Source: Polychytrium aggregatum
Taxonomy: Eukaryota; Chytridiomycota; Chytridiomycetes; Polychytriales
Assembly (NCBI RefSeq): GCF_025602895.1
Contig: NW_026516416.1
Location: 1 to 50,282, forward strand
Length of the DNA: 50,282 nucleotides
Direction of reading: 5' to 3'
The position numbers and the translations under genes are program-made. The notes below the pieces were generated by a model. The model was not told where the DNA came from and did no database searches. It saw only the letters and a list, made by a program, of their open reading frames with translations. Positions 1,310 to 37,213 of this stretch are shown in pieces. Every line of letters starts with the position of its first letter. The stretch's first letter is position 1.

Positions 1310-1775
1310 TGTCACAGATCGCTCTGCCCGCCTAGCTGCACCGTCGCACTTGTGTCACTGTTTGCGTCGCACACTTTCCTTTTCCTTTGTCCTGTGACGC
1401 CTTTCCTTTTTCCTTGCTCTCATGTTGCACACGCCGCTCTGTTTTCCCTGCATTTGTCATCGACCATGCATTAGTCAGACGCTGTGTCACCCGCATTTGT
1501 CAGCCACCGAGCATTTGTCAGACTTTCACATGTTTCTCCGGTTAGCCGTTGCTGCCTGGCTGCTGTCCCGCCGCCTCCACTGCTTCGCCCCCGCTGCGGC
1601 AGGCTTCGCCTCCGGGACCGCCAGACAGATAAATAGCCCGCCTTCACCCGCTCATGTTTCTGGTCATCACCTTCGACCCCAGACACACTTGACTCTAGAT
1701 CCTAGCCTCGCTAAGATCAATAAAACCCTTCTCTATCTTTTTCTTTTGATCTCCTCTTGATCCCGTGATCTGACA
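1310..1775 (+). repeat. 5' LTR of the intact chromovirus
   Basis: Starts TGTCACAGATC and ends ATCTGACA, 466 bp, same as the copy at 6563-7028. It contains a TATA-like GATAAATAG near 1627 and an AATAAA polyadenylation-like signal near 1720, so transcription probably starts between them. A 112-codon open frame inside the LTR (1422-1760) is not considered a gene. Confidence 0.95.
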
Positions 1776-5800: not shown

Positions 5801-6528
5801 ACAGCTCAGCTTCGACTGGACATTCGCCCTTCTTCCTGATGCACGGTCAGCATCCTCGCACTCCTGCCAACACCGACATCATCGCCGAGTCCAACCCTGC
5901 AGCACAGTCGATCGAGGAGATGCAAGCGACTCTGGACTTGGTCTCGGACAACATCGGCAAGGCCCAGGACCGGGCCCTGTACTACGCCAACCGACATCGA
6001 CGCGATATCAGCTACGACATTGGCGACCAAGTCCTGATCGACACGACCGCGTATCACTTCAGCACGGACGACGTCACACCCTCCAAGATGCGGATGCCGT
6101 ACTTGGGACCCTTCAAGATCATCGAGAAGATCGGAACGACTGGATATCGACTTCGACTCCCGAGGACCCTCCGATTTACAACCGAACTCCCCGCTTCCGC
6201 CCTCGTCCCCTACAACACACCATCGACCGACCAACTTGTGTTTGATGAACCCGGACCCAACCACAACGACGAATCAGTGTTCGAAGCGATCATTGGACAC
6301 AGGATCAACCGACGACGTCGACTTCCTGGATATCGACACGAGTTCTTGCTCCGCTGGCAGGGATACGACCCATCTTACGACTCGTGGGCACCACTGGCCG
6401 AACTCTTGGATGGAGGACTCGCAGATATCCACGACTTCCTCAGCCGCAACCGCAACCTTCCGGAAATGGACACACTGATCGACCTTTGCCAAGCACAAGT
6501 GCAACGCAACTCGGGATCGAAAAATTGA
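2719..6528 (+). CDS. pol: Pol polyprotein (PR-RT-RNaseH-IN-chromodomain) of the intact chromovirus
   Basis: About 1,260 codons open without interruption in the -1 frame of gag. The frame has no ATG at its beginning, which fits expression as a Gag-Pol fusion. Protease: LIDPGATNSHIS with the catalytic Asp at 3016-3018; Pro replaces the usual Ser/Thr after it. Reverse transcriptase: YIDD at 4081-4092. RNase H: a TDWSES segment near 4537 and HTDQKALKHI near 4741. Integrase: an HHCC zinc domain around 5176-5310 ending CDICQ, then the catalytic triad Asp 5389, Asp 5587 and Glu 5695, giving a D,D35E spacing. C-terminal chromodomain at about 6277-6460 with FLLRWQGYDPSYDSWAP, which binds modified histone tails and steers integration. 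All catalytic positions except the unusual protease context look intact. Confidence 0.95.
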   Translation: MSLEPAPHQRHRRDRRPGHLLRRSGKRRGGNPWILRPLKDPASCRHPTPTPDAELLTLATGPHLINSLIDEPHRIAANHGKGLLVIDATLNGSPITVLIDPGATNSHISETLASTLDLRTKTTANAVTMPNGKSFPSSVTDPVDLTIHDYHARINLFTAPLTWDVILGKNWLDQTNPEIDWPSNRIKFSIDGKHHTWTASRPDTGMPLTTLELRSQYHMSTQQINALASTPGAVYVCTLSSDLNTVAVEPYDPVAQLARVLEPLTPEHRSIIAKYRDAFNELKELPPHRPGIDMNIQLDDSAKPTWSSLYQMSAEELARLKDELDRLLRIGHIRKSVSPFGAPIFWVKQGDKFRLVFDFRALNKITVKDRTALPNMREIIDRLSKCRVFSKLDLQRGFHQIRIADADTPKTAFRTKYGHFEWLVMPFGLANSPSVFQAAMNDIFREFIDDFVFVYIDDILIASEDEDQHIRHIELVLDKIHRHGFKIRPEKCSFFNSTVTYLGFIIGEGRIQVHPSRIDAIKNYPRPTTEHELRSFLGLTNTIMSFVPGYAALAGPLSTLITTRSANSTKSVVWDDNAIAAFEQLKLLSPQSLHMVNPDKDIHLFTDWSESSASIGGWIGQDMDGSGTVRPIAFNSQKLHGSELNYSPYNGELLSITRHLDKFKNYLVGRKVFLHTDQKALKHILDSKTLNKRQQRAIDTMLDFDLEIQWIPGSWNKVADVLSRTPTAISKAVQVSIINAIVNLGPSPDDLLDTIRTQYSSDPILSALISVLRDNSTDGLKPWMKAQLHRFSLRHGILYFDSTRICIPGKDLRISIIKDHHDSVCAAHPGTNTLYKAISTHYYWPAMSKDIAEWVSHCDICQRAKIRRQQAYGHFSRIPVATRKMDTVALDFILGLPPVTDSLSGRTFNSITIFVDSLTKYVVLVPGNKTDSAEDVARQYFRDVFVHFGLAGTFISDHDTRFRSAFWTGLNTLLKTELRIAFAHHHEAAGQVERFVATVAEAIRCSTLALGSRWIDQVPYIQFALNSHSSASTGHSPFFLMHGQHPRTPANTDIIAESNPAAQSIEEMQATLDLVSDNIGKAQDRALYYANRHRRDISYDIGDQVLIDTTAYHFSTDDVTPSKMRMPYLGPFKIIEKIGTTGYRLRLPRTLRFTTELPASALVPYNTPSTDQLVFDEPGPNHNDESVFEAIIGHRINRRRRLPGYRHEFLLRWQGYDPSYDSWAPLAELLDGGLADIHDFLSRNRNLPEMDTLIDLCQAQVQRNSGSKN

Positions 6529-6554
6529 TGGTTTGACTTGAGCACAATTTTTCT

Positions 6555-6562
6555 GGGGGGGA
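6555..6562 (+). promoter_or_regulatory. Polypurine tract
   Basis: GGGGGGGA directly before the 3' LTR, the expected primer site for plus-strand DNA synthesis. Confidence 0.8.
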
Positions 6563-7028
6563 TGTCACAGATCGCTCTGCCCGCCTAGCTGCACCGTCGC
6601 ACTTGTGTCACTGTTTGCGTCGCACACTTTCCTTTTCCTTTGTCCTGTGACGCCTTTCCTTTTTCCTTGCTCTCATGTTGCACACGCCGCTCTGTTTTCC
6701 CTGCATTTGTCATCGACCATGCATTAGTCAGACGCTGTGTCACCCGCATTTGTCAGCCACCGAGCATTTGTCAGACTTTCACATGTTTCTCCGGTTAGCC
6801 GTTGCTGCCTGGCTGCTGTCCCGCCGCCTCCACTGCTTCGCCCCCGCTGCGGCAGGCTTCGCCTCCGGGACCGCCAGACAGATAAATAGCCCGCCTTCAC
6901 CCGCTCATGTTTCTGGTCATCACCTTCGACCCCAGACACACTTGACTCTAGATCCTAGCCTCGCTAAGATCAATAAAACCCTTCTCTATCTTTTTCTTTT
7001 GATCTCCTCTTGATCCCGTGATCTGACA
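6563..7028 (+). repeat. 3' LTR of the intact chromovirus
   Basis: 466 bp, TGTCACAG to ATCTGACA, matching the 5' LTR wherever compared. The right target-site copy ATTAC follows at 7029-7033. Confidence 0.95.
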
Positions 7029-7682: not shown

Positions 7683-7960
7683 TCGAAAAAAACGCGCTTG
7701 AGAGCGCAACACGGAAGGCTGGAGAGACTTCCAGCACCACTTGTGCTGCGCCTAACCCGTTTGCCTTCCGCAGGCACGCGTCGGAACGCCCGCCTGAATG
7801 CCCGCCATCGCAGATATGAGCTGCTGGTATTTGGCCCCTCAATAAACCAGCAGGCACACAACGTCGTTCAATCCAGCTTGTCCTGATCGCCTTCAACCTT
7901 CCACCTTGCCTCGTCCCGTCTTTGCCTCCACCCAGCCCTACCTAGCCCTGCCCCATTACA
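7683..7960 (+). repeat. 5' LTR of the degenerate chromovirus
   Basis: Aligns with 12650-12926 at an offset of about 4,967, sharing blocks such as CCCGTTTGCCTTCCGCAGGC and CCCCTCAATAAACCAGCAGG. The AATAAA inside the second block is a likely polyadenylation signal. The first bases no longer read TG, so the outer edge is decayed or approximate. Confidence 0.8.
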
Positions 7961-8013
7961 GGTTGTTTGCCTCATCTCATGCTCAGTCCGTTCAGTCATG
8001 CTAACAGCTTCTC

Positions 8014-9002
8014 ATGTCAAGAAAGTTCAATACCCCCGCCGAAGAACCCGAGGCCTCCTTCCCTGAGATTGACGCCCAGCCCAACCAAGAGGTCAATCAA
8101 CACCTTGCAACCTACCACCACCTCCAAGGCCAATTCAATCAGCTGCAGGCCCACCTGGGTGTCGTGCACCATGCCCAGGCTGCCGCTGCCGACTTTGCCC
8201 AGCTCCAGGCCAATCTCCAAAACGCACCCAGAGAACCCCGAGTTCCTGACCCGGCCTTCTTACCGGTCGCCGCTCCGAGATCCGCAGCTTTGTCAACCAA
8301 CTTCGCCTCGTCTTCTCGATGCAAGAGCCGCGGTACCCCACTGATCGCCTCAATGTGACGTTTGCTGCCAGTTTCTTGCGCGAGACTGCTGCCGCCTGGT
8401 TCGCTCCGATTCTCGAACGTGACGGCCAGGCTGTCCTCGACAACTTCGAGGAATTCCTCCGCCGCCTTGATGTCTCCTTTGGTGACCCCAACAGGACCAA
8501 GACTGCCGAGAGGGCCCTCGACGCCCTCACGCAAGGCAACCGCTCAGCTGCCGCATACATCTCCGAGTTCAGCCGGTTGGCCATCGACACCGACTGGAAC
8601 CAGGCAGCTCTCCGCCACACTCTGCGTCGCGGTTTGCATCCCGAGATCAAGGATGAACTTGCCAAGTCGACCGAACCCTGTGATTACGAAGAATGGACTA
8701 GCCACATCATCAACATCGACGTCAGTCTTTACGAGAGACGGCGTGAACAGAAGTCGGAACGCCGACAAGGAACCTTCGACCCCCGCCCTACAACCAGACC
8801 TTGGCCCAGCGCACGCTCGCCTCCCCAAACGACCCCGATTGAGGCTGACGCCCTCCAAGTGACCTCGACCGGGGAGCCTCAACCCAAAGGAAAGCTCACC
8901 CAGGATGAAAGAGACAGGCGCCGCAAGCTCGGATTGTGTTTGTATTGCGGCGAGAAGGAGCACTATGCCAAGTCGTGCCCCGCAAGACTGGATTTTCAGT
9001 AA
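8014..9002 (+). pseudogene. gag remnant of the degenerate chromovirus
   Basis: Begins with an ATG at 8014 (MSRKFNTPAEEPEASF) and reads in frame 1 to about 8255, then continues in another frame through RSFVNQLRLVFSMQEPRYP to a stop at 9002. The join marks a one-base frameshift near 8255-8270. The second part carries a Gag capsid-like region and a CCHC knuckle CLYCGEKEHYAKSC at about 8938-8980, typical of Tf1/sushi-type chromoviruses. Not expected to give functional Gag. Confidence 0.85.
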
Positions 9003-9065
9003 GTCCGACGGCCACCGCAGGAGCCCCGTCGGACTCCCCAAACCCCAAGCCTCCTGATCCTCCAT

Positions 9066-12000
9066 CATCCAGGGACAAGCCCCCAACCAGTCCGCCGGAC
9101 CGACCCATCCCGCGCAGCCTCGAGATTCTGACGACCTGTCGCTTCGGAGAGACAAGCTTCGTCGTCAAAGCCTTTGTCGATTCGGGATCGCAGCTCAACT
9201 GCATGGACATCGATGTCGCCAAGCAACACTGTGTCCCCACCCAGCTCCTCGATCGCCCAGTACAGGGCCGCGCCGTGGATGGCGAGATTCTCGCATCCGG
9301 CGGCATCACCCACGAAACGGTTCCCCTTGAGTTCAACATTGACGGACACCAAGAAACTGTCAGCTTCAAGCTCATCCGCCTCCGTTTCGCGAAGTAAATC
9401 TAGGGTACCCGTGGCTCAGTAGGCACGAACCTGAAATCCAATGGGGCGCACAGAGGATCAACCGCCAGTCCTGCTCGTGCGGACAGAATACAATTTGTGA
9501 GCCAACACCTCCTCCGCAGCGACCCACAGATATCAAATCAATCCAGGCCCCCCTCGTATCCTTGGTTGGTGCTTCTGGTTTCAAGAGAGCCATGAAACAA
9601 GGCCAACTATACTTGATAAGTGCACTCGACTTGGAATCTCCGAGGGAGTCGCAGGGTGTGCCAGACAAGTACTCGTACTACGCAGATGTATTCAGCTCTC
9701 AGGAGGCTAATCATCTCCCTGATCGCCGCCCCTGGGATCACAAGGTCGAGCTCACTGATCCTTCCAAGCTTCCGGCCCGAGGGTCTGCGTACCCTTGAGG
9801 AGCACGAGATGAGTGCGCTCCGAGATTACATCAAGGATAATCTGACAAAGGTTTTCATCCACCGAAGTCTCCCCTGTCGCAGCACCGATCCTGTTTGAAA
9901 GAAGAAGTCAGGGGAACTCAGACTGTGTGTCGACTACCGTCGACTCAACCACCTGTGCAAGAAGCAATCCTAACCCGTTGCCCAACATCAAAGAGATGTT
10001 CCGCAAGGTTCGACGAGCTCGCGTGTTTCTCCAAGCTAGACCTCCGAGGGGCCTACAACCTCGTTGAGATAGCGGAGGACCACGAGTGGCTGACGAGCCT
10101 TCACCTGTCCCCTTGGACAATTTCGAGTACCTCGTTATGCCCTTGGCCTCCAGGCCCACCAACTACTTTCCAAGCAACTCATGGACCACGTTCTCAAGGA
10201 CCTTGGGCACTGCACCGCTATCTACCTTGATGACATACTAGTTTTCTCGGACGACCCTCTGAGCACGAGGCACATGTACAACTTGTGCTCGAGCAGCTGA
10301 GAGGTCAACGGGACTCTTTTGCAAACTAGAGAAATGCCCGTTCGATGTGGACGAGGGAGAGTTCCTCGGCCACATCGTCAACACCCGCCGGCCATCAAAA
10401 TGGATCCTAAAAAGGCCCCAAGCCGTCCTCGACTGGGAGGCCTCTACGCTCGGTGAAGGCAGCTCCAAATGTTCCTTGGCCTAGCAAATCTTACGACCGG
10501 ACATTCATCGCCAACTTCAGTGGCATCGCTGCGCCACTACCACAAGATGACAGGAAAGAACAGCAAGTTCAACTGGGACGCAACTGCCCAGTGCGCATTC
10601 GATAGTCTCAAGGAAGCCTTCACCACTGCACCGGTGCTCACGCATCCCAAACCCAGACCTACCGTTCATCGTTGAGACGGACGCCAGTGACTTTGCCATC
10701 GGCGCCGTGCCCTCCTGTCAGGAAGGACCAGACGGCAGTGTACATCCAACATGCTACTGGTCGCGCAAACTCACAGCCCCCGAGATCAACCACGAGATAT
10801 ACGACAAAGAACTCCTGGCGATCGTCACCGCTATGAAGGAGTGGCGCCCACTTCCTAGCCAGCTCCAAGCACAAGACCATAGTTACATAGCGAACCACCG
10901 AAACCTTTGTGTACTTCACAACCAGCCGAGTACTCAACCGCCGTCAAGCGAGATGGTCCATGTTCCTGACCGAGTTCGACTTTGAAATGGTATACAAGCC
11001 CGGCAAGGTGTGGTGGTTGCGGAACGCCCTCTCCCGAAAGCCTCAGCTGGAGCTTGCCGAGGACGATCCTGCACGTCTCCAACAGAGACAAGCGATGCTC
11101 AGGCCCAGAGCACTTCCGGATCGCGGCCCTCCAGGCACAGTCACTCACAGAGTTCGAAGAGAGAGTCAAGCAAGCCCTGTCTTCCAACCAATAGGGCGCA
11201 AGAAGTGATGCAGATCCCGCGAAGCCAATGCACAAGGCATTCAAGTCTGTCGATGGCCTCCTCTACCGCGACGAATTGGCTGTACATCCCAACAACGGAG
11301 CTTCAGCTCGAAGTCCTCCGAGATTGTCATGGCTCGAAGACCGCGGGGGCATTTTGGGAGGGAAAAAAACCATCGAGCTGATCACGCGAAACTACTGGTT
11401 TCCCAGGATGCACCAGATAGCGGGCAACTGGTCAAGTCATGTGAGGTGTGCTGTCGCGCCAAAGCCGGTCCGACACTCACCCCTACGGGTTGCTGAAGCC
11501 ACTCCCGATCCCAGAAGCACCATGGAGTGCAGTGTCCATGGAATTCATCGTCTAATTACCGAAATCCGAGGGTTACGACGCCATCGTGGTCTTTGTCGAT
11601 AGACTGATAAAGATGGCCCACTTCCGCGCCTGCAACGTCGCAATTCACAGCCGAAGAGACAGTCAAGCTCTTCGTCGACACTGTGTTCTGGAGCACGGGC
11701 CCCGAGATCCATCGTCTCGGACCGAGGCCCCCAGTTCAAGTCAGCCTCCTGGAAACGATTTCACGAGCTCCTGGGAGCGTCAGTCGATCTGTCGAGTGCC
11801 TATCACTCCGAGGATGACGGACAGTCAGAGAGAGAGTCAACAGCGTCCTCGAGTCGCTCCTACGCTGCTGCTGCTGCGGTTATCAACAGGATGACTGGGC
11901 ATCCCTTCTCCCCTTGGCGGAGTTCGCATATAACAACTCGGTGCATGCGACCACCAAAACGACCCCGTTTCTATGCAAACCATGGCTTCCATCCGGTGTG

Positions 12001-12600
12001 CGACTTCAAGACCATAACACAATCTAAGATTCCGGCAGCTGATGGAACACGTCCAGCATCTCGAGCAGGTGCTCGACGACCTCAAACAGCACCTTCGTGG
12101 AGCCCAAGAGAAGCAAAAGCGCTACGCCGACCGACACCGCAAGGCCATTAACATTCTTGTGGGGTCCAAGGTATGGTTATCGAGGCGCAACATCAGGACC
12201 AGAGACCATGTGACACATTGGCTTTGGAAACGATTGGGCCCCTTCGAGGTCATCGAGTGTATCAACGAAGTCGCATATCGCCTCCAGATGCCAAGTCGAT
12301 GGCCAAGGTCCACCCGGTGTTCCATGTCTCGCTCCTCGAGCCAGTACATGCGAACACGATTCCAGGAAGAACAGTTGCCCCTCCACCACCCATCGCGATT
12401 GAAGACCATGAAGAGTACGAAGTGGAGAGCATCTTTGGATGCACGCAATGAGAGGTAGACGCGTGGAATACCTCATACGATGGAAATGGTACGGACCCGA
12501 GGAGGACGCGTGGGACCTGAGGAGAATTGCACAAGCGCCCCTGAAGTCGTCCGCGCGTTTCATGAACGCTATCCAGACAAACCCCGTGGACAACTTTATC
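9066..12600 (+). pseudogene. pol remnant of the degenerate chromovirus
   Basis: Pieces of pol survive in shifting frames: protease AFVDSGSQLNCMDIDVA near 9170-9225; reverse transcriptase with YLDDILVFSDD near 10218-10250; an RNase H segment SRKLTAPEINHEIYDKELLA near 10760-10820; an integrase region near 11240-11900; and the chromodomain around 12415-12540, split between EYEVESIF and EYLIRWKWYGPEEDAWDL. At least ten frame changes or stops separate them, so no polyprotein could be made. Confidence 0.85.
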
Positions 12601-12649
12601 AACATCGTGCTGAGAGGAAGCGTAGGGGGAGGACTTGAGAGGGAGGTGA

Positions 12650-12926
12650 TGTAACGGAATGTGCTACAGAGCGCAGCACGGAGGGCCTGGAGAAGCTTCC
12701 AGCACCAAGCTGTACTGCGCCCCACCCGTTTGCCTTCCGCAGGCACCCACCGGGATGTCCGCCATTGCAGATAAAAGCTGCTGGTTTTTGGCCCCTCAAT
12801 AAACCAGCAGGCAAACAACGCCGTTTAACCCAGCTTGCCCCGATCGCCTTCCGCTTTTCTCCTTGCCCTATGAATTTGCCCCTCGTTACGTCCTGTGCTC
12901 GCCTCTCTCCTGCCCTGCCCGTCACA
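12650..12926 (+). repeat. 3' LTR of the degenerate chromovirus
   Basis: Starts TGTAACGGAATG directly after a purine-rich run (GAGAGGGAGGTGA) that would be the polypurine tract, and ends near CGTCACA. Diverged copy of 7683-7960. Confidence 0.82.
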
Positions 12927-18197: not shown

Positions 18198-18640
18198 CTG
18201 CGTCTCGGTGCGGGGTGTGCTGTTGTGGGTTGTGTCGGTGGTGAAGCCAGAGCTGTTGGGCAGGCCAGGCCGATCGGAAAATGGCTTCGCCCCTTGCAAC
18301 GAGCGGAGATTTCAAGCATGGACAGACAGGCCACGGGCACATGACATGCCGATGGACTCGAGGCACACGAGCAGTCCACCCCCAGTCTATTGCGCACGTC
18401 TTCGAGCCGTGTATCGTTTGGAGAGCCATGCAAGGTATATTCCGGTATATACAGCACAATCAGTGAAACGGGACACTGTGTATTGAGGGAGGGTTGCCGT
18501 TTTCTGGGTCCTCGATACACTTCCACCATGAACAAGCAATGTGTCCATCATGGGAGGCCAAGCGACCCGAATCGCTCGACTCCTCTGATATCGTGAGCCC
18601 ACGGAGCTCTCCCGGCGATCGAAAGCATGCATTGCGCTCC
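18198..18640. other. Upstream region of RAD2, no gene recognised
   Basis: Probable promoter side of RAD2 (minus) and left flank of the Fanzor remnants. Short overlapping frames on both strands show no recognisable similarity. Confidence 0.4.
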
Positions 18641-18716
18641 TGCAGCGTAACATCAACGCCGGCCAACCATCGACACAGATAATCGCCACGGGAGATCGAC
18701 TGGGCATTTTCAATAC
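18641..18716 (+). pseudogene. Fanzor C-terminal remnant, copy A (older)
   Basis: Translates to QRNINAG...STQIIATGDRLGIF, matching the RDINASRN...CQSIIATGDRPGVF segment of the intact Fanzor at 27146-29758. This contains the last RuvC motif. It is cut off by copy B, which restarts at the same motif, so one 3' end seems to have landed in or recombined with another. Confidence 0.65.
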
Positions 18717-18911
18717 TGCCAGTCGATCATCGCCACAGGAGATCGACCGGGTGTATTCAAGACTGTGCTTCCCAAACCAATCAAAACAAAGAGATTGCCA
18801 ACCAGGACGGGAAACAATCTCACGGCCTGCCCGCTGGACCTACAGTCAGTCAGCGGGCTTCAGACATCCGAAGCCAGGAAGGAACTGTCCCGTTTCTTTC
18901 TGGATAGACTG
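18717..18911 (+). pseudogene. Fanzor 3' end, copy B (right end conserved)
   Basis: Nearly colinear at DNA level with 29567-29762, from TGCCAGTCGATCATCGCC to the shared right end CTTTCTGGATAGACTG. Everything 5' of the last RuvC motif is missing. In its middle it resembles the deleted copy at 36807-37213 more than the full copy (both have CCAGGACGGGAAACAATCTC), so these two are probably from the same subfamily. Not translatable into an active nuclease. Confidence 0.85.
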
Positions 18912-19049
18912 TAATAACAGAGCATCTCGTACTTAGCGCCCCTGCTCTATTTTCTGTTGGTGGCGGGATTACCCACATGATCAATTTACGGATCTGTCCC
19001 GACGATCTGATATACCCACTACACTCCGCACCCAATCTCACTGTCGTCT

Positions 19050-20898: not shown

Positions 20899-23299
20899 AT
20901 GGATGGCGGCGCTCGAAAGAGGTCGTCGTCTTCTGGGCGGGAAGACCTTCAGAGCCCAGATGCACAGCTCTCAAAGCGTCTCGCAAGCACTCCCGGTGCG
21001 CGTGATGACCAATTGCCTGCGATTGTTTCTTGGTGCCAAACTGCCCTCCCCAATCGCTTGCTGACCTGCAACCTCGGGCTCTTACACCGGGCACCAGCTC
21101 CTCCAGCCAGCTTCTACGGCTCCAGTCGCGTGAGCAGCAGGTCAGATATCGTCATCCTGTTGGCGCTTCCTCTATTGTCGATCGGCTCAATCGATTCACA
21201 CCGCCGTTTGCAACCATCCAGACACGAGGAAACCCATGCCAAGCGATGGGCCCAGGTTCTCAAGACCTTGAAAGTCGTTGGCACGCCACACTCGCCGAGG
21301 CAAAGCACCTTGATGCTTTTCAAGAAACAGGAATTGGCTTTTGAGTAAGTACTCCGAACTGGCGGACAGCAGCATCGGAAGCCTCTGCCTCTCTACTTGG
21401 CAAAACTCACCCATGCTGCGGGCTGTTGGCCAACATCCTAGGTATCAGAGGACGTGCTCCAATCCAGTCCACGTATTCTCCTTCGAGACAGATATTTCCA
21501 ATCCGGGCAAGCGAAAGTTCCTCGCCACCACGTACCCGCATTTTTGGGAGCATTATCTGTGAGTAGCCAACAGAGGGCGCCCTGCCGTGAGCGCAACCAG
21601 AGGCCGGGGCCTTTGGCAGATGACCGCCTGGAAATGGCCTGCAGCTTCTGAGTCAGCTCCAAACACCGATCAGCACACTCGACCAGCGCCACTACTACGA
21701 GGTTATCAAAGAAGGAATGCCATGCAAGCTCTACTTTGATCTCGAATTCATGACCCAGGACAATCCCAATCTCGACCATGAGCGGGTCATGGCCACCTTC
21801 ATCCAGGTCTGCACTACAATTCCGCGCTGGCAGCGGTGGGATGTGCCCGATTCCAAGTGTGTGGGCTGACGGCCGCCGATGTTCGGATCGACGCTCTATC
21901 CAGCAGGGCCCGCGGCATGTTGATCCCAGCCGCAGGGTCGATTGATTGGTGGCTGTCCCGGGCACGAACTGCTTTGGCGAACTGAAACTGAGGCTTCGAA
22001 ACAATTGCTAGCTTCTACTCGACGAGCTGCTCAACAAGTTTGGGATCCGATGCCGCCCAGAACATATTGTGGATTTGTCGTCAACGACAACATCAAAGTT
22101 TTCCCGCCACATCATCGTCAACCTCCCCGGGGCCGTCTTTCAAGACAATGGCCATGTCGGTATGTTGTTGTATGGCCTCTTCGCTCCACCATGTGTTCTA
22201 CCAGTGTACTGGTCTCTAATTTCAAAACGGCACAGGTCGGTTCGTTTCGTATCTCATATCTCGGATCCATGAATACAGCCAAGGAAATGGCGAAACTAGC
22301 GTCAAGTTTGCTGAGCTCATCGTCAAACATCCATCGAGCGGCCGGGCGGTATTCATCGATGAGAGTGTGTACAGCAAAAATCGCAACTTTCGCATCATAT
22401 ATTCATCCAAAATTGGCAAATCATCGCCTCTCTTGCGAGCAGACAAGCCTGCACTGGATCAACGGATCGAAAACGAGACCTTCAAGTTCTTCAAAGAAAG
22501 TCTTGTGTGTGCAGTGGAGTATGACGATGACCTGCGACTCCTCTCGTTTGGCGAAAGTCCGGTGCTCCGTTTCCCAGGGCCGCTTTCGGGGCGCAGCAAT
22601 GACGCAGCGCAAACGACATCCTCGCAGCCATCGCCATTTCCTCAAATCGATGAATATGTTTTGAGGTCGATCCAAAGCCGGAATTCGAGGGCCTGTTTTC
22701 GATCGGCCACATATTTCCCCGAAAGTAAGCGTCCTGCTTCCGATACAGCCCAGAGGACACGGCAAACGGCACCATACTGACAACTATTTTCCAGGCAAAT
22801 CTCTCGTCTATGCCATTGGTAACGATCGATTTTGCTTCAACATCGGACGGCAGCACAAAAGCAATGGCGTTTACTACGTCGCCAGCCTCAACAATGGTAC
22901 ATTTACCCAAAGGTAATGTCATGCGACTGGTGAATATCTCGGCCATAACCCAGCTGCTCCAGGAACCGCGCTGTTATGAACAATTCGAAGGGCCAACTGA
23001 TTTGATATGATTTGATATGATTTGATATGATTTGATTGGTGGTATGCCATTGCACATCCACCTACAGATGCTACGATGTTGATTGTCGCCGCTTCCGCTC
23101 GGCCGAGCAAACTATCCCGTTATCACTGGTGCCATTTGCCCTCGACACCGTCAGGCCCGATCTCGACGACGAGAGCGACAATCAGCCCGACGAATATGAT
23201 GAAATCATCGCCAGTATTCCAGAGTCGCTCTTTATACCTCACACAACCAGACCTGCCGATCATGAATCCAAAGAGAGCAGCCCGAAAACAGGCAGCTGA
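20899..23299 (+). CDS. PRIMPOL: PrimPol (primase-polymerase), paralogue 1
   Basis: Archaeo-eukaryotic primase that reprimes stalled forks and bypasses lesions in nucleus and mitochondria. Exons: 20899-21344, 21442-21558, 21653-21806, 22012-22159, 22236-22724, 22795-22912, 23068-23299; about 567 codons, the usual size. Key segments: LFKKQELAFEYQ, ATTYPHFWEHYL, CKLYFDLEF with the metal-binding Asp-x-Glu, TSKFSRHIIVNL with the catalytic Ser-x-His, YSKNRNFR, and the zinc knuckle formed by Cys and His of CFNIGRQHKSN plus CYDVDC. The acidic C-terminal tail may serve in RPA binding, but that is inference. Exon 1 stays open but may hide an intron near 21130. The last intron contains a 10-bp tandem repeat. 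The gene is followed head-to-tail by a second PrimPol with introns at matching positions. Confidence 0.93.
22998..23037. repeat. 10-bp tandem repeat in a PrimPol intron
   Basis: About four copies of TGATTTGATA inside the last intron of PrimPol paralogue 1. Confidence 0.9.
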
Positions 23300-23811: not shown

Positions 23812-26189
23812 ATGAACACCTCGGCCCCCGATCGCTCGCCCAGCCGGAAAGACCAAAGATCTCACGAGTCTCATGCAACCGGCCACATCACGCCTCACGC
23901 CGTCTACAGCTACCCACTCCAGCGCATCGTCTTCACAAAACAGGCGCCGGCCCTGCGGTATGGGCTCGGTACATCTCTATGACTCCGCCGCCGCACTGCA
24001 CAAGCATCATTCCGCTCGAATTCCATCCGCTGCCGGAGCGTACATGACCCATCGTGCGAGGTCCCTGGGTTGGTCTTGGAGCCTTCGTCATCCCAATCTG
24101 TAAATGCCTCTAATCACACCAGTCTGCAAGATCTGCGGCCCGAGCTGCCGTTTCTGTTTGCATATGAGGTACGATCGAAAGGCATGATAGGATGCGATCG
24201 ATGATGACTGCTCGATCGACTCGTGGCATCACCGTCCTTTCAAAGTTTGCCATGACTTGGAGCATCCGTCGCCCGATTCATACCAACAACGCCCCGTCCC
24301 TGGTCTCTGGCCACGAAGCTATCCCAGCCACACACAGGTCCTCGCTACTACTTCCCGGCGTCATTGGATGACTTTTGGCCAACATATCTGTGGGTATTTC
24401 TTCAGCTCCAGCGCGCTTGAGGCCCTCATGCTGCGACTCTGCTTGCTGATCGACTCTTGTTTACTCTCGATTTCGGTATAGAGCCTTCAAGCCAAGCGAG
24501 CGCTGCTTTCATGAGGTCATTCGCCATGATCGGCCATGCAAACTCTACTTTGATCTCGAGTTTGACAAGTCAAAACACCAGACCGTCAATACCCAAGACA
24601 TCATGGAGCGGTTTCGGCATGTATGAGTCCGGGGCAATCCCGCGGGATGGCGAGCCGTGGATGCTGTTCGATTGAAGGTCTGGGCGACATGCGGTGCCGG
24701 CAGCGATCGCCACTCACTTCCGCCTGCATTTGCACATTTGTTTCGATTCATGGTCGCCTGCTCCCCAGATAGTTATCACCCACCTGACCAAGTTGTTCGA
24801 CATCCCCGCTGCGGACTGTACCGTTGTCGATCTGGACTCAACCTCTGCCGTCAAGTTCTCGCGACATTTGATTATCAATATTCGAGGAGTGTGCTTCGAG
24901 AGTAGCCTGCATGTTGGTGGGTACGGGTATAAAATCAATGCGATCCATTGCTTCGTTCTCTTTGGACAGCAATCGAACTGACGCTCTTCTTGGGCATTTG
25001 TGTCTTGATAAGGGGCGTTTGTTCGAGATCTCCGGCAGCGACTTTATCTCAAGGCATTTTCCATCGACCAATACCCAAGCTACGTTGCCAGCTCACCTAT
25101 CGCCATTGATACACTAGCGGAGGTGGACCCCGAATATGTCCGCAGTCTGTTTTTAGACGAATCTCTTGGCATCAATGGCCTGTTTGTCGACTGCTCCGTC
25201 TACAGTCGAAACAGAAACTTTCGCATCCTGGGATCACGTAAGCCCGGCCGGACCGAGATTTTTTCGCCCACCAACCCCGTTCATGCCAGTAGCATTACGC
25301 TGGAGTACTTCCGGACGACTCTTGTCTCGGAATGTGAACAAGGTGCCCGCCGGATCTCATTCAAGGCTCCCCAGACCGATCTTTCGGCTCATTTTCCGCA
25401 TACGAGGGAGGCAAGAAGCTTCCTTGCGGTACAGAGCGATGACTTTGCCGACTTGGAGAACTATCTGTTGCAGCGGCTGCGGGAGCGCTCTCCATCAGCT
25501 GCGTTGGGTGATCCTGTTTACGAATTGACGACAGGTGCGTCGCATGTTTATCAAGGCCTCATTGCTGTTGCAGCGATGTCTAGCATCAGCCCATCATCCT
25601 CCGAAGCGCGACCCGACGCTCTGCGACTAGGGTCATTGCATTGACAAGTCTTTGTTCGCCGCATAGACGGTCCGCGGCTATTTTATCCGATCAAGGGCGA
25701 TCGTTACTGCGAAGTGCGCGGCAGACAACACAAAAGCAATGGGACGTTCTTCAACATCTCGATGTCGTCGGGCACGTTTACTGAATGGTAGGCGTTGCTG
25801 GATCGCAGTCACTGGGGATTGTGAGACTGATACTGGAATCCCAGGGCGCTGGTGCATCATATATAGTCATCAACGTCAAGCGCGAGAGCATTGTATAGCA
25901 GCGTCGCGGGGAAGGGATTAGACAGATCCATGGTGTCCTCTATGCTGACGCCATTGTACTCCTATTGTTCACCGGATCGACTTGACGGGCGTGATCACCG
26001 TCTCAACCATCCTGCTCCAACCATCCTGCTTCAATCGTCCTGCTTCAATCGTCCTGTATCGGTGCCATCAGCTGTTTCGACCACGACTGTCGTGGCCATA
26101 TGAGGATCACTCACCTATTGCCAGTTTCCATCAAAGAGTGCCTACAATCTATTCAGAAAAAAATCGGGACACCACACCCGCTCCCTTGA
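23812..26189 (+). CDS. PrimPol (primase-polymerase), paralogue 2
   Basis: Second copy, diverged from the first but with the same motifs and intron phases. Secure exons: about 24260-24389 (ending FPASLDDFWPTYL), 24482-24620 (CKLYFDLEFDKSKHQ), 24769-24916 (VKFSRHLIINIRG), 25013-25534 (VYSRNRNFR), 25649-25787 (GRQHKSNGTFFN), 26072-26189 (zinc knuckle CCFDHDC, then a short tail). The catalytic Asp-x-Glu and Ser-x-His, and the zinc ligands, are all kept. The 5' end is uncertain: a segment near 24120-24170 reading LRPELPFLFAYE may correspond to LFKKQELAFE, and an ATG at 23812 would open an upstream exon. It lacks the acidic tail of paralogue 1, so the two may differ in partners. A 14-bp tandem repeat lies in the last intron. 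Confidence 0.85.
26003..26058. repeat. 14-bp tandem repeat in the last intron of PrimPol 2
   Basis: Four units of the type TCAATCGTCCTGCT / TCAACCATCCTGCT, imperfect. Confidence 0.85.
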
Positions 26190-26239
26190 ACATGTAGTAT
26201 GTGAGGACTTATGTCCAATGGAGACACATGCAATTCAAC

Positions 26240-26452
26240 AGATCACCTCCGAGTAAAAGCCACCGGTCGCTCCCCGTCTCCACATTCGATCTGCACTGCT
26301 CAAAGTACCGAGCAAACCGCTGCCTCCGAGGGCTGGATGCACAGCCCATGCCTGTGGGTCGCTGCACTGGTCTCGGAGTGCCGGCGGTGAATGGTGCTTT
26401 TGGACACACTGAAGATGGTGGCGACCTTACGCAAGCTGCGGAGCAGCGAGGG
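26240..26452 (-). pseudogene. Chimeric remnant: helix-turn-helix followed by a Fanzor RuvC-II fragment
   Basis: Reading on the minus strand, 26452-26375 encodes LLRSLRKVATIFSVSKSTIH, a helix-turn-helix like those of transposases of the IS630/Tc1 type. About 25 bases later, in another frame (26352-26240), comes GCASSPRRQRFARYFEQC, clearly the YASSPRRLRFAKYFEQF segment just after RuvC-II of the intact Fanzor. The two are joined by a frameshift and a large deletion. It may derive from a Fanzor family with a helix-turn-helix, or from a transposon that carried a Fanzor; the sequence cannot decide between them. Confidence 0.65.
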
Positions 26453-26460
26453 TGCTGTGC

Positions 26461-27016
26461 TTGACCATGATTGCAATGAGTGGGCAGATGTATTCAGGTC
26501 ACAGAAAAAACCACTGTCATGGCTCAAAACGGGGTGTCCCATTTCATCTTGGAAAACGCTGTAAACTCGAACGTGGGGCCGAAAAGCACCTCGCGACCCA
26601 TGTCAGCCGGCAGCCGCCGGGTAGCGATGCAATCTGCTTATTTTTGACAAGATAAATATGCATCAAATCGGGTCTCGCGATGGACATGACTGCCTCATCT
26701 TGCCCATCGACGATCCTGCCGTCGCATTGCTTTGTGGGAGCAGCAAAAGTTGGAATCTGGCCATGGTCTGTTGACGGCATTTGGTATCGTCTTGAGCCAA
26801 TTGACGGTGGTGGTGGGCGACTGGTGTGGAGGAATGACCAATTGTATCATTGTTGGAAGCTCCACTCCGATTGCGGACAAGAACCACCACCGTCTGAATC
26901 TCTCTGGTTGGAAACCTAGTCAAGCGTGGCTGTGTGTCAGCGAGATGACATGATCGTTTGGCTATCAGGCAAGACTCACCTTGACAAGATGTCTTCCCAC
27001 GACTGATTGAGCGAGC
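26461..27016. other. Left flank of the Fanzor element, no gene recognised
   Basis: No supported gene. A 79-codon frame at 26680-26919 has no similarity I recognise. The left boundary of the Fanzor element is probably near the end of this interval. Confidence 0.4.
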
Positions 27017-27145
27017 GATGCGTTTCTGGATCTGAATCAAGGACGCCACTGCGCAGTATCTCTGCCAGCCCAAAATGCGCTGGTTTTGAGGAGATTCTTT
27101 CTTCCCCAAGGGCAGAACCAGCCATCGCTGCTATTTTCTCGCCAG

Positions 27146-29758
27146 ATGGCTCCCAAGAGAAAGACACCCCCCGATCCCGACCCGGGATCACCCAATGACT
27201 CTCCTGTGGCCAAGAAACCCGTCATCAAATCGTGTCGTGCCTGTGGCCTGACCAACCATGTTAGGCCCTTCACCAAGAAGTGCACAGCCAGAATCGACAG
27301 CAGCCCTGCCTCTGGCTCTGCCTCGGTCGCTGAAATGGTCAGCCAAGCACCCAAGGTCCCTGTATGTGCCACGTGCGGGGAAGAGGGTCATGCCAGAAGC
27401 AACACCCCAAAGTGCCGTTTCTATAACCCACTCTGGAGCTCTACCTTGCCTGGCTGTGGCCCAAACGAGTATGCCAAGGCCGAGTACTCCACCGTCAAGT
27501 GCACTCTGGACGCCATCATCAAGAACGACACCTTGCACGACAAGATCGAGGAGACTGTCCGAGCCATGACTCAAGTGCAGTACGAAGCATCTCGTCTCCT
27601 GGAGCTGCATCTCAGGCGGTGCTTGGACAAGGGCATCACCCTCCCCACTGTGTCGTCGAGTGAACCCGCGTTCGTTCGAAAATGCTTCAACATGGTGCAG
27701 ACAGGAATGACTAGTGTCAAGAAAGGCACGACCCAAGAAGACAGGCACATCATCGACACCTATGACCTGTATCGAAGTACATGGAGTGGATCGTATATCC
27801 TGCCTCCAGTGTCCCTCCCAAAGGGTACTGGGTCACAGGTCCTTGGTTTGGCTGTCAAGACCTATGTAGTCAACTGTGAGACCCACGTTCTCGATCGTTA
27901 CTGGTCTCTCCTCCGTCGATACTGCAATTTGGTCCTGGTTGCTCCGAAGGATGTCAAACGTCACACACACGTCGACGAGTGTATGAAGCTGATGGAAAAT
28001 CCCCTCTCCAAGACACTCCTCGTTGATCTGAGGAAGTCCTTCGCCCACCATGCCGACCAGCTATATCGGTTTCGCTACAAAAGCCACCAGGACCTGTATC
28101 GAGTTGTATCGAAACTGGCCAGTGAAGTCTCTCGACTGACCCACCTGAAGGAGGCCCTCTTCATGGTGGTCTTTCAGAAGATGATCATTCCCAGGCTCGT
28201 GAGGGATACCGATGTTCTGAAAGGAGAGCGTGGACGACTGAACGAGGAGATGTGTCAACCCATCGAACGTAGGCAGTCGGATCAATACAACGCACTCCAG
28301 ACCCAGCACGAGGAGGTGTGCAAGCAGATCACTGTCAACACGAAGCGGATCAAGCGCCTCACCGACCGGCTTGCCCAGACCAAGAAGAGACTCAAGGCCC
28401 CTCGAGCACAGTGCACCTTGGTCCCGCTCTGCGATGCCAGAGCCAAGTATGTCAAGCTCGACACCAAAGCACTGTGGGAAATCCTTGGATACCAGACTGG
28501 CACTGGGCTCAGGTGGGACGACCTGAAGACCAAGGTCAATGGCACCACAAAGCAAGAGACCTTCTGGCAGACCAACTTCAAGCTGGATCCGAGACTCTTT
28601 GGTGCCAGGGAGGAGGGGAAGCAGCTCTTTGGTTGCGAGATCACCACCGATGGGGTCGGGTGCTCGATCACCACACTCAGATACAAGATCCTGAAGAAGG
28701 ACCCCGATGTCAAGCCGGAATCCGTGGACAAGGACGACAACACACTCACTCCTGAGCAGAAGATCCAGGCCAGGGTCGGTCCCATCGACGACTCTCGGAC
28801 CACATGGATCGGGATCGACCCTGGAGTGGGATCGATCTTCACCGCTGTCAATCGAGCACCCGGTCAACCATCCATCCAGGAGCAAGACGGTGTCAAGGTG
28901 ACCAAGGCACAGCGTGCCAACGAGAAGATTGTGTCGTTCTCCAACAAGGAGTACCAGCATCGATGTGGCACCACCCAAGCGACCAAGTGGATCCAGAGCA
29001 CCCACAAGATCCTTGGTCTGCAGCAATGGATGAGCACCACACCAAGTCCCAAGATCCCTGGAGTGTCTTCTTTCTTGCGATACATTCGCCATGGGTTCGA
29101 TGGAGACATGCTGGAGAAACAGCTGTACTTCAGCCTGACCCGGCGACGGCGATTCAAGCGACTCGATCTCCACGGCAAGCGACAGCGCACTGTCCACGAG
29201 ATGTGCAAGCAAGTCATCGACCAGGCACCACCGGAGACCGAAGTGGCGATTGCCTTTGGGAATGCCTCCTGGAAGCAGGGGAAGGGATATGCCTCCAGTC
29301 CCAGGAGACTCAGGTTCGCCAAGTATTTCGAGCAGTTCCACCACCACCAGAGAGGCCCACCAGACCGATCCGTCTCCAAGATCCATGTGTGCTCGGTGAA
29401 CGAGTTCAACACATCCCAGGTGTGCTCACATTGTCGGGAAGCCAAGCGACTTGAGAAGGTCGAGCATCTTGATATCGAGAAACCACACTTTGTCCGGAGC
29501 TGTGCAAGCTGCCATACGCTGTGGGATCGAGACATCAATGCCTCAAGGAACATGATCTCGGTATGCCAGTCGATCATCGCCACAGGAGATCGACCGGGTG
29601 TATTCAAGACTGTGCTTCCCAAACCAACCAAAACAAAGAGATTGCCAACGAAGACAGGAGTGCAATGCCATGGCTTGCCCACTGGGCCTACAAGTCAGTC
29701 AGCGGGGTTCAGACATCTGAAGCCTAGAAGGGGAAGTGTCCCGTTTCTTTCTGGATAG
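27146..29758 (+). CDS. Fanzor (eukaryotic TnpB-like RNA-guided DNA endonuclease)
   Basis: An 870-aa protein in one exon. The ATG at 27146 (MAPKRKTPP) is chosen because the deleted copy keeps the same start, and upstream in-frame sequence has no ATG. Order: basic KRK possible nuclear signal; two zinc knuckles (C30-C33-H38-C46 and C74-C77-H82-C90); a long helical middle; then the RuvC-like core. RuvC-I is WIGIDPGVG (D558). The RuvC-II region EVAIAFGNAS (from 699) lacks the TnpB-type Glu at the usual place. VNEFNTSQVCSHC gives the displaced Glu (E753) typical of Fanzors. A four-Cys zinc ribbon follows (C760, C763, C786, C789), then RuvC-III WDRDINASRN (D796). All catalytic positions are intact. 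Known Fanzors cut DNA guided by an RNA encoded at the gene's 3' end. It is larger than many, mainly from the knuckle-bearing N-terminus. No interruption was seen, so it is probably recent or selected. Confidence 0.93.
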   Translation: MAPKRKTPPDPDPGSPNDSPVAKKPVIKSCRACGLTNHVRPFTKKCTARIDSSPASGSASVAEMVSQAPKVPVCATCGEEGHARSNTPKCRFYNPLWSSTLPGCGPNEYAKAEYSTVKCTLDAIIKNDTLHDKIEETVRAMTQVQYEASRLLELHLRRCLDKGITLPTVSSSEPAFVRKCFNMVQTGMTSVKKGTTQEDRHIIDTYDLYRSTWSGSYILPPVSLPKGTGSQVLGLAVKTYVVNCETHVLDRYWSLLRRYCNLVLVAPKDVKRHTHVDECMKLMENPLSKTLLVDLRKSFAHHADQLYRFRYKSHQDLYRVVSKLASEVSRLTHLKEALFMVVFQKMIIPRLVRDTDVLKGERGRLNEEMCQPIERRQSDQYNALQTQHEEVCKQITVNTKRIKRLTDRLAQTKKRLKAPRAQCTLVPLCDARAKYVKLDTKALWEILGYQTGTGLRWDDLKTKVNGTTKQETFWQTNFKLDPRLFGAREEGKQLFGCEITTDGVGCSITTLRYKILKKDPDVKPESVDKDDNTLTPEQKIQARVGPIDDSRTTWIGIDPGVGSIFTAVNRAPGQPSIQEQDGVKVTKAQRANEKIVSFSNKEYQHRCGTTQATKWIQSTHKILGLQQWMSTTPSPKIPGVSSFLRYIRHGFDGDMLEKQLYFSLTRRRRFKRLDLHGKRQRTVHEMCKQVIDQAPPETEVAIAFGNASWKQGKGYASSPRRLRFAKYFEQFHHHQRGPPDRSVSKIHVCSVNEFNTSQVCSHCREAKRLEKVEHLDIEKPHFVRSCASCHTLWDRDINASRNMISVCQSIIATGDRPGVFKTVLPKPTKTKRLPTKTGVQCHGLPTGPTSQSAGFRHLKPRRGSVPFLSG

Positions 29759-29762
29759 ACTG
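29560..29762 (+). ncRNA. Candidate guide-RNA (omega/fRNA) scaffold and right end of the Fanzor element
   Basis: In OMEGA systems the guide RNA overlaps the 3' end of the nuclease gene and runs past the element's right end, where the guide segment begins. Here the last ~200 bp are kept at DNA level in two other copies (18717-18911 and 36807-36990), one of which has lost nearly all other coding sequence. The tail after the last RuvC motif (about 60 residues, rich in Lys, Pro and Thr) has no known domain, consistent with DNA-level or RNA-level constraint. The RNA itself is inferred, and its start and end are not visible. Confidence 0.4.
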
Positions 29763-29891
29763 TAAGTATCTTGCACCGTTCCTTGAGTATTTCTACAGTG
29801 GATGCCGGGTCGCCCATATTCTGGGCAGTCCACTTCGGGGTTGCCATCCCTCTTGGGATGGTCGATGGGAGGTGTTTGACTCCCTTGTGCA

Positions 29892-29893
<2 letters not shown>

Positions 29894-29972
<79 letters not shown>

Positions 29973-29978
29973 GTGTGT
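29894..29978. repeat. (GT)n microsatellite, about 36 units plus a short second run
   Basis: Uninterrupted GT repeats from 29894 to 29966, then CAAA and a second short run to 29978. It lies between the Fanzor right end and the RF2 start codon, and can form Z-DNA. Confidence 0.97.
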
Positions 29979-30159
29979 GACGGCGAGAGGCTTCTCGCCT
30001 TCCCTCGGGGGTCTCTCGCCAGAGACTGCTCTTCTCGCCGACCGAGGTGGCTCCGAGAGCGCGCTTTTTCGTTCTCGCTCATTTTTTTAACAAGAATTTT
30101 TTTCATAGTGTCTTGAGGCAAGCCGCCGATCCGCCCCAGCACCATCTCTCGCCTGCTCG

Positions 30160-32669: not shown

Positions 32670-33054
32670 ATGTGGCTCGATTACACCGTGCACGGTCGAT
32701 TTCGTCTGGCCGCGATCGATCAGAACAACAGTATCATGGTCCGTCGGGCGCTGACGCCAATACTCCACAGCTTTGAGTGGTTCAGACCGCTCCGTGCCAG
32801 ATGCAGCCTCTCGATATCAAGAGAGGGGGCACGACTCGACATGGATGGTAGGCCTCGATCGGCAATGACTTGGTGTGCGCGCCTTGGTCTGCTTTGACTG
32901 CGTGACGAACCATGTGTGTATTCAAGGCCCTGAGGAAGAGTGGTCCTCGGTCTCCTTGGAAGCAGAGTCACCCGTCTCGTTTGCAAAGTCGCATTCGAGA
33001 AAGAACAGACATTTCATCGCCCACCCGAACGACATTATGTGGCACTGTCTGTAA
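32670..33054 (+). CDS. Small hypothetical protein, two exons
   Basis: An ATG at 32670 opens 59 codons to a GTAGG donor after 32847. A 79-bp intron and a CAAG acceptor lead in phase into 32927-33054, ending PNDIMWHCL and TAA; 101 residues in all. The second exon begins GPEEEWSSVSLEAESP, acidic and soluble-looking. I recognise no family. It lies tail-to-tail with ERO1 in a 650-bp gap after RF2. The clean phase match is the only support, and it could be chance. Confidence 0.3.
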
Positions 33055-36696: not shown

Positions 36697-36785
36697 GTGA
36701 AGCGCATAGTGGGTACATGTGAAGCACATAGTGGGTACATGTGAAGCACATAGTGGGTACATGTGAAGTGAATAGTGGGGTAAAT
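36697..36785. repeat. 22-bp minisatellite upstream of ERO1
   Basis: Four tandem units of GTGAAGCACATAGTGGGTAC plus two bases; the last unit is diverged. Preceded by three loose copies of GATGCATGG at 36659-36697. Confidence 0.9.
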
Positions 36786-36806
36786 GGTGAGGTGCATGAC
36801 TCTATT

Positions 36807-37213
36807 CAGTCAATCCAGAAAGAAACGGGCGGTCACTCTCTGGCATCAGATGTCTGAAACCCGCTGACTGACTGTAAGCCCCGGTGAGCAGGCCGTGAGA
36901 TTGTTTCCCGTCCTGGCTGGCAATCTCGTTGGTTTCGTTGGTTTGGGAAGCATGGCCTTGAACACACTCGGTCGACCCCCTGTGTTGATGTGCGAGTGTG
37001 ATGCACCACACTCACACATCGAGTGGATGCACCACACTCGCACATCGAGTGGATGCATCACTCGACCCTCTGGAGAGCTCCATAGCTTCTCGGCACTGTG
37101 AGCACACCTGGAGATCGAGTCGCTTGAATCGCCGTCGCCTTGGAGATGTCTTTCGTTTGCAGGGAGCCATATGAGCGAGAAAGCCTCCTTGATTAAGATC
37201 CAGAAACACATCA
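36807..37213 (-). mobile_element. Internally deleted, non-autonomous Fanzor derivative
   Basis: Read on the minus strand it keeps the element's left end (GATGTGTTTCTGGATCTTAA), the start codon and first codons of the nuclease (MAPCKRKTSP, 37170 downward), then jumps to RRRRFKRLDL (from before RuvC-II), then to QVCSQCREAMELS (first half of the zinc ribbon). A 26-bp tandem repeat follows, and finally the whole conserved 3' end to CTTTCTGGATTGACTG. About 2.3 kb of coding sequence is missing, including every catalytic motif. Keeping both ends while losing the gene is what a copy mobilised in trans would look like. A short open frame (36802-37011) is not a gene. Confidence 0.85.
36990..37063. repeat. 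26-bp tandem repeat inside the deleted Fanzor copy
   Basis: Between two and three units built from GGATGCACCACACTCGCACA and ATCGAGT. It is absent from the full-length copy, so it expanded after the deletion. Confidence 0.8.

Follow-up and report, generated by a model that had tools for sequence, protein, structure and literature searches.

We analyzed a stretch of 50,282 nucleotides (the window) from the chytrid fungus Polychytrium aggregatum (RefSeq assembly GCF_025602895.1, contig NW_026516416.1, positions 1–50,282 of the forward strand). An 870-amino-acid (aa) open reading frame (ORF) at 27146–29758 on the + strand is predicted to encode an intact Fanzor1 nuclease, and it lies within a transposon that is present in many copies in the genome, with short terminal inverted repeats (TIRs) and 3-bp target-site duplications (TSDs). 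Taking the results as a whole, we consider it fairly probable that this Fanzor1 resides in a transposase-less CACTA/EnSpm-type element that is mobilized in trans, and that the nuclease is guided by flanking DNA and cuts empty insertion sites. The new aspects of the present study are the carriage of a Fanzor by a CACTA/EnSpm-like element and a one-sided insertion motif from which the target-adjacent motif (TAM) of the nuclease may be predicted.

The frame contains no internal stop codons. Residues 745–803 matched Pfam PF07282 (TNB zinc ribbon) with a score of 37.2 bits (cut-off, 26.3; E value, 3.4e-9). A protein search restricted to residues 545–815 returned 746 candidates, 13 of which had E values of 0.01 or lower: five P. 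aggregatum gene models and eight distant relatives. Alignment A2 combined the window protein with eight distant relatives (484–748 aa; 25–35% identity overall). A profile of A2, compared with PDB sequences using hmmsearch, matched SpuFz1 of the chytrid Spizellomyces punctatus with an E value of 8.5e-28 over profile positions 53–663, covering the REC and RuvC regions, and GtFz1, the Fanzor1 of Guillardia theta, with an E value of 4.3e-9. In the profile alignment, D558, E753, and D796 fell on D383, E541, and D606 of SpuFz1 (positions counted on the printed alignment, in which they are chain residues 777, 935, and 1000, with a constant offset of 394). These SpuFz1 residues are among the named active-site ligands (PMC10432273). 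Judged from its sequence, the 870-aa ORF is an intact Fanzor1, the catalytic residues of which align with those of the solved SpuFz1. The first-pass annotation, which had described an unbroken frame with all Fanzor landmarks and had proposed a profile search as a check, was confirmed on these points.

All of the landmarks are encoded on the + strand. The RuvC-I aspartate (D558, in GIDPG) is encoded at 28817–28819, the displaced RuvC-II glutamate (E753, in VNEFNTSQ) at 29402–29404, the four-cysteine zinc ribbon (residues 760–789; Cys 760, 763, 786, and 789; identified by PF07282 and A2) at 29423–29512, and the RuvC-III aspartate (D796, in WDRD) at 29531–29533. D558-P559-G560, E753 (as E753-x-NTSQ), and the four zinc-ribbon cysteines are invariant in A2, and RD at position 796 was read off the printed alignment in seven of the nine rows, with P0012 lacking it and P0014 stopping short of it. 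In the genome, D558, E753, and D796 were preserved in 21 of 21 copies and C760 in only 18; this sample, composed of the window copy plus 20 taken from among the best-scoring matches, is thus biased towards good copies. The window protein also fits the published Fanzor pattern, D-X(125,275)-[TS][TS]XX-C4 zinc finger-X(5,50)-RD (quoted in PMC3627910), which was matched by two of 20,000 shuffled copies, and the DPG named as a Fanzor signature (PMC10711439) is present as GIDPG. Two putative zinc-knuckle-like motifs are located in the N-terminal part, at residues 30–46 (C-x2-C-x4-H-x7-C; 27233–27283, +) and residues 74–90 (27365–27415, +; also seen in A2). None of 20,000 shuffles contained two such motifs in one protein, and the majority sequence of the relatives at the second motif, CxxCGxxDHxRxSSxKC, is similar.

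Other searches were negative. A PDB search with the 870-aa protein alone did not return SpuFz1 at E values of 1 or lower, a profile of the genomic copies only (A1) did not find Fanzors in PDB, and a whole-length search against 5.8 billion proteins returned 5,334 candidates, none of which had an E value of 0.001 or lower. Rfam had no matches at gathering scores and no tRNA was found. NCBIfam TnpB matches, in the TNB zinc-ribbon region, were far below the cut-off. The present protein shares this region with bacterial TnpB (IS200/IS605 and IS607), but differs in its displaced glutamate, DPG signature, long N-terminal part, and location in a eukaryotic transposon. The lack of introns had been regarded as a special feature in the first-pass annotation. 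The ORF is indeed uninterrupted; however, this is not unusual for a Fanzor because SpuFz1 is likewise encoded by a single ORF (PMC10432273).

The previously assumed fungal host agrees with the nearest database proteins, namely, the P. aggregatum gene models P0002, P0003, P0004, P0006, and P0009, which were 85–95% identical over 20–54% of the searched region. Unlike the window protein, they are not whole Fanzors, but Fanzor fragments within other gene models. The fragments are joined to an F-box protein in P0002, an AMP-binding/male-sterility protein in P0003, and a protein-kinase-C-like kinase in P0006, and P0003 and P0006 matched PF07282. These three fusions represent either exonization or errors in the gene models.

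The genome searched comprised 64.7 Mb in 418 contigs, with both haplotypes assembled. The Fanzor protein had at least 67 matches, at least 52 of which were long (76–100% identity; the window and both haplotypes counted); these numbers are lower bounds, with the best 52 of 1,709 first-look candidates having been scored. Therefore, the window gene is neither rare nor isolated. Twenty copies were taken with their flanks; they were the best-scoring copies apart from C307, and counts of intactness are thus biased upward. Homology spanned CACTATCAATTTTTTCCGG to TTTTTTCATAGTG in most of these copies, and the family ends, CACTAT...ATAGTG, form a short TIR. A pattern search of the genome that tolerated up to two mismatches located 126 left and 120 right ends, while reversed-pattern controls yielded none. 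Among the ends listed (100 of the 120 right and 100 of the 126 left ends), 65 pairs were formed, leaving 35 of each unpaired, and their sizes fell into discrete classes: two at 278–295 bp, 31 at 1.44–1.64 kb, two at ~2.18 kb, one at 2.6 kb, and the full classes of 15 at 3.33–3.42 kb and 14 at 3.70–3.88 kb. Both flanks were read at 67 sites, 48 of which had a perfect 3-bp TSD (mean of shuffles, 6.7; maximum, 16); L009, the left end of which has been replaced, was excluded. The left and right flanks had no common perfect target duplication in 15 of 49 insertion-site groups, possibly because elements located at different loci had crossed over or because of mutation.

CAC..GTG termini and 3-bp TSDs are consistent with EnSpm/CACTA, and both are described for fungal transposons of this group (PMC12730594). 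The present family has both features, with the window copy retaining the right end only. Unlike those transposons, the present element carries a Fanzor. IS607-type Fanzor2 elements, which have a serine-recombinase partner and are defined by the lack of TIRs and TSDs, do not match a family with a short TIR and 3-bp TSDs; this comparison did not include a search for the recombinase. The Fanzor gene is the cargo of this high-copy element with CACTA/EnSpm-like ends; no transposase was found within it.

The window copy is 5'-truncated and occupies 26737–30110 (+). Homology to most of the 20 other copies begins near 26737 and ends at 30110–30112. The right end is present, including the right TIR CATAGTG (reverse complement, CACTATG) at 30104–30110 (+), whereas neither haplotype retains the first ~67 bp with the left TIR, and the left junction is identical on the other haplotype (C381, L099). 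Since the left terminal repeat is missing, the window copy is probably immobile. Elements of the ~1.58-kb class, referred to here as ghosts, have lost most of the ORF. In the ghosts read, the first codons are joined out of frame to RuvC codons from ~609. Of 19 full copies examined, 12 carry a nested 366-bp element, with inverted ends of its own (TGTCATGAACCG / CCGTTCCTGACA) and a duplicated AGAAC, ~28 bp upstream of the ATG; in the copies read, this insertion explains why the larger of the two full classes is longer. Comparisons with other copies showed that its site is empty in the window copy (AGAAC at 27114–27118, +). This nested element corresponds to element positions 449–814 in L010-type copies and is carried along by many Fanzor elements.

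Of 21 full-length copies, 20 of which had been chosen for their high scores, 15 had an intact ORF (853 aa or longer, beginning at the usual start), and pairwise dN/dS over the 21 copies was 0.295. Variants were then counted in the C-terminal part common to full and ghost copies, using 18 full copies and 21 ghosts, with eight second alleles dropped. The ratio of nonsynonymous to synonymous variants (N/S; neutral, 2.4–3.2) was 0.82 (59/72) for variants found in both full and ghost copies and 2.56 (64/25), with four stops, for ghost-private variants. These ratios indicate that the protein has been kept by purifying selection over the history of the family and that ghosts evolve as non-coding sequences. 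A low pairwise dN/dS among 26 ghosts (0.261) had prompted the idea that a functional C-terminal protein is made from ghosts. This idea was rejected because ghost-private variants look neutral and the RuvC frame is out of frame with the ATG.

The insertion motif was examined at those unique sites that had a target duplication, 34 in total. [A/C] at position −1 and [T/C] at position 0 were found together at 33 of the 34 sites (background, 0.258), and RAMY at 15 (background, 0.029). A/C at −1 was present at all 18 full sites and at 15 of the 16 ghost sites. Outside the duplication, four positions of the left flank amounted to 1.84 bits, against 0.24 for the right flank; none of 5,000 random flips reached this. 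The element itself ends in G on the right. None of the 34 sites had this base at −1, and the right junction of an occupied site would therefore be no target. The TAM of SpuFz1 is CATA, with a conserved CA to the left of the 5' repeat of its element (PMC10432273), and putative TA duplications have been described for this element, SPu-1 (PMC3627910). We infer that CATA consists of CA plus TA. By analogy, the one-sided motif [A/C]|[T/C] is predicted to be the TAM of the present Fanzor.

A guide RNA had initially been expected at 29560–29900. Diversity data and the comparison with SpuFz1 instead point to the right end at ~29978–30110 and the adjoining flank as the more likely source. In full copies, diversity was 0.013 at 29978–30045 and 0.033 at 30046–30110, against 0.060–0.081 in the ORF; the corresponding values in ghosts were 0.017 and 0.042. 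The stretch at 29978–30045 is non-coding and had the lowest diversity of those compared. We propose 29978–30110 (+) as the candidate guide-RNA scaffold, and the TCT copy of the target duplication with its flank at 30111–30133 (+) as the putative guide source, based on the TSD pattern and the analogy to SpuFz1. The right end may thus yield a guide RNA.

We propose that these features are connected as follows. A CACTA-type transposase acting in trans would move the Fanzor element. A transcript of the right end would run into the flank, which would produce an RNA with flanking DNA as its 3' guide. The complex of Fanzor and this RNA would recognize [A/C]|[T/C], or RAMY in its fuller form, adjoining the flank, a motif that is intact in the empty site and absent at the element's own right junction. 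The cutting of empty sites by Fanzor would favor the refilling or retention of the element. Ghosts would supply guides in trans, and the window copy would probably serve as an immobile source of the protein and RNA. A further step, which we put forward tentatively and regard as rather doubtful, is that Fanzor shapes the insertion landscape: mainly insertions beside a [A/C]|[T/C] (RAMY) TAM would be kept through recutting and restoration, and ghosts would use the nuclease in trans.

Several observations weigh against this explanation. Variants private to full copies had an N/S of 1.76 (44/25), and because of this ratio, individual recent full copies are regarded as partly decaying. PF02992, which we take to be the EnSpm-type transposase family, had 29 matches in the genome, none of which were within the 65 paired elements. 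Sites without a matching TSD fit the insertion motif less well, with A/C at −1 in 10 of the 15 groups. The right end is not alone in its low diversity; values were also low in the 5' untranslated region (0.028/0.037). The predicted fold of the right-end RNA was not significant (z-score, −1.68; 16 of 200 shuffles were as good), and covariation was absent (0 both-sided, 15 one-sided, and 29 broken of 1,064 cells). The filling of sites is in favor of the explanation: among 10 further insertion sites, six had a second haplotype and all six were filled on both, as is the window site, while four had no second copy in the assembly. However, insertions older than the split of the haplotypes would give the same result. 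The exchange of sequences between copies at different loci, described below, was also present in a Ty3-type retrotransposon and, thus, is not specific to the Fanzor element.

The flanks of the window copy recur collinearly on C381, which indicates that two haplotypes were assembled, and the same site on C381 is filled by a ~1.55-kb ghost. Full/ghost allele pairs were found at four of 25 allelic sites (window/C381, L028/L043, L016/C166, and L018/C413). The 25 sites comprised 18 same-flank pairs, which are biased in that they were found because both alleles were filled, the six sites described above, and the window site. In three pairs with 2.5-kb flanks, the flanks were 99.68–100% identical and the elements 95.6–97.1%; for most of the other allelic pairs, the flanks read were short. 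Ten allelic pairs contained 576 substitutions, 503 of which had both states in other copies, and one pair had no differences. In some 250-bp intervals, an allele was identical to other loci and differed from its own partner at 7–13 bases. This patchwork looks like ectopic exchange. In L016 and L101, an unusual 5' coding start was common to a full copy and its ghost allele, as if the body of the Fanzor had been put back into a ghost.

It is likely that the patchwork and the full/ghost allele differences reflect ordinary ectopic gene conversion in which Fanzor is not involved. The Ty3-type element at 7700–12900, which served as a control, was 97% identical to its allele and 92–95% identical to its closest other copies; there were 23 differences in 549 bases, and the allele matched an ectopic copy at 19 of them. 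The two alleles of this older element are ~3–4% apart, and in the stretch read, the allele was closer to the ectopic copy. Since the control retrotransposon showed the same pattern, allele patchwork was dropped as evidence for cutting by Fanzor; the exchange is common to repeats of this genome, or in part a product of the assembly, and provides no evidence for Fanzor cutting. However, this comparison covered a single other family, and a relic repeat at ~26142–26565 in the left flank of the window copy had no substitutions and one 32-base gap between alleles, though the copies listed are only 73–91% alike, which may be too little for conversion. A near-identical allele was also sought for a PF02992 locus as a control, and none was shown. 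Hypermutation resembling repeat-induced point mutation was not needed as an explanation, with only a moderate excess of C>T and G>A changes (90 of 226 private variants).

The main rival to the TAM reading of the insertion motif is that it reflects the preference of a CACTA-type transposase, with Fanzor as a passenger or otherwise employed. We regard this as a serious possibility, to which we give somewhat less than even weight. The strongest motif position, [T/C] at 0 (34 of 34 sites), lies within the duplicated target, which the transposase chooses, and there is weak symmetry inside the duplication (22 of the 34 sites combine T or C at 0 with A or G at +2). However, a transposase that joins two ends is expected to leave a roughly palindromic motif, whereas the flank outside the duplication was informative on the left only. 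Moreover, the TAM measured for SpuFz1 goes together with a similar arrangement (PMC10432273).

An artefact of assembly or polishing in repeats is an unlikely source of part of the allele-specific divergence: two unrelated repeat families were affected, but the full/ghost differences of ~1.8 kb lie between unique flanks at four of the 25 allelic sites, and the assembly separates an empty from a filled site of a long terminal repeat (LTR) retrotransposon (1310–7028), which is absent from the other haplotype. PF13359 (DDE_Tnp_4), presumably a Harbinger-associated family, had no matches in the genome against the 29 of PF02992, and the CAC..GTG ends fit EnSpm. Although no transposase sequence was tied to the ends of the family and 3-bp TSDs are also found with canonical Harbinger elements (PMC12730594), it is thus quite improbable that the element belongs to another superfamily with 3-bp TSDs, such as Harbinger, rather than to CACTA/EnSpm.

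The present family resembles SpuFz1/SPu-1 in that a single-ORF Fanzor1 with an alignable D/E/D active site is carried in a fungus by a transposase-less element with TIRs, that many copies are present, some of which are intact, along with ghosts, and that the right end is conserved (PMC10432273, PMC3627910). In both cases, conserved bases lie to the left of the element; they form part of the TAM of SpuFz1 (PMC10432273), and here the TAM is predicted. However, SPu-1 is ~2.1 kb with TIRs of 30–33 bp and putative TA duplications (PMC3627910, PMC10432273), whereas the present family is 3.3–3.9 kb with CACTAT/ATAGTG ends, 3-bp duplications, and an 870-aa protein with two zinc-knuckle-like motifs. 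GtFz1 shares the superfamily and active-site layout, but its own locus, as described in PMC10432273, seems to be without inverted repeats. CMe-1A of Cyanidioschyzon merolae is similarly a high-copy element (~150 copies, with some ORFs intact), but is described in PMC3627910 as lacking TIRs. In the phased diploid alga Auxenochlorella, a Fanzor element, referred to as uncharacterized, is the most abundant repeat (PMC12633428). Because the CMe-1A and Auxenochlorella elements are also abundant, a high Fanzor copy number in one genome is not itself new. A full-text search, which covered few subscription papers, identified no paper with both Fanzor and CACTA as whole words and none with both Fanzor and Polychytrium aggregatum, and neither CACTA nor EnSpm is mentioned in the main text of PMC3627910 or of PMC10711439.

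The genes around the Fanzor ORF include those for an RF-1-type release factor, ERO1, a Gar1/Naf1-like protein, and proteins of the major facilitator superfamily. The first-pass annotation had described the relatives nearby as broken, and this holds for those found: a broken relic of the C-terminal part at 18521–18914 (+), a further broken relic at 36791–37212 (−), and two weak, diverged Fanzor-like relics at 26296–26487 (−; E value, 7e-5) and 32693–32821 (−; E value, 3e-4). The former of the weak relics lies within the dispersed repeat at ~26142–26565, for which a 1.5-kb query had at least 46 matches (best 40 of 1,092 candidates scored). The Fanzor-like stretch in this repeat suggests that the genome may contain a second, older Fanzor family. 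Short tandem repeats with 22- and 26-base units are located beside the relic at 36791–37212, namely, at 36697–36779 and 37000–37051. The LTR retrotransposon at 1310–7028 is a young Ty3-type element with identical 466-bp LTRs, an ATTAC duplication, and gag and pol ORFs. A 30-base stretch is repeated with 93% identity at 21719–21748 and 24533–24562; one of its frames reads PCKLYFDLEF, which is reminiscent of a PrimPol-type primase motif.

The natural role of Fanzors has been described as unknown (PMC10432273). P. aggregatum provides a dense natural case: ~120 element ends lie on two assembled haplotypes, copies are of both the full and the ghost type, many of the proteins are intact, and the predicted TAM is concrete. 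If the TAM is the insertion motif, the retention hypothesis may be tested using genome data. If the proposed explanation is correct, CACTA/EnSpm-like elements would join the list of Fanzor carriers, and if the more doubtful step on the insertion landscape also holds, this genome would contain a natural trace, in a diploid, of the Fanzor-driven retention of CACTA-type transposons.

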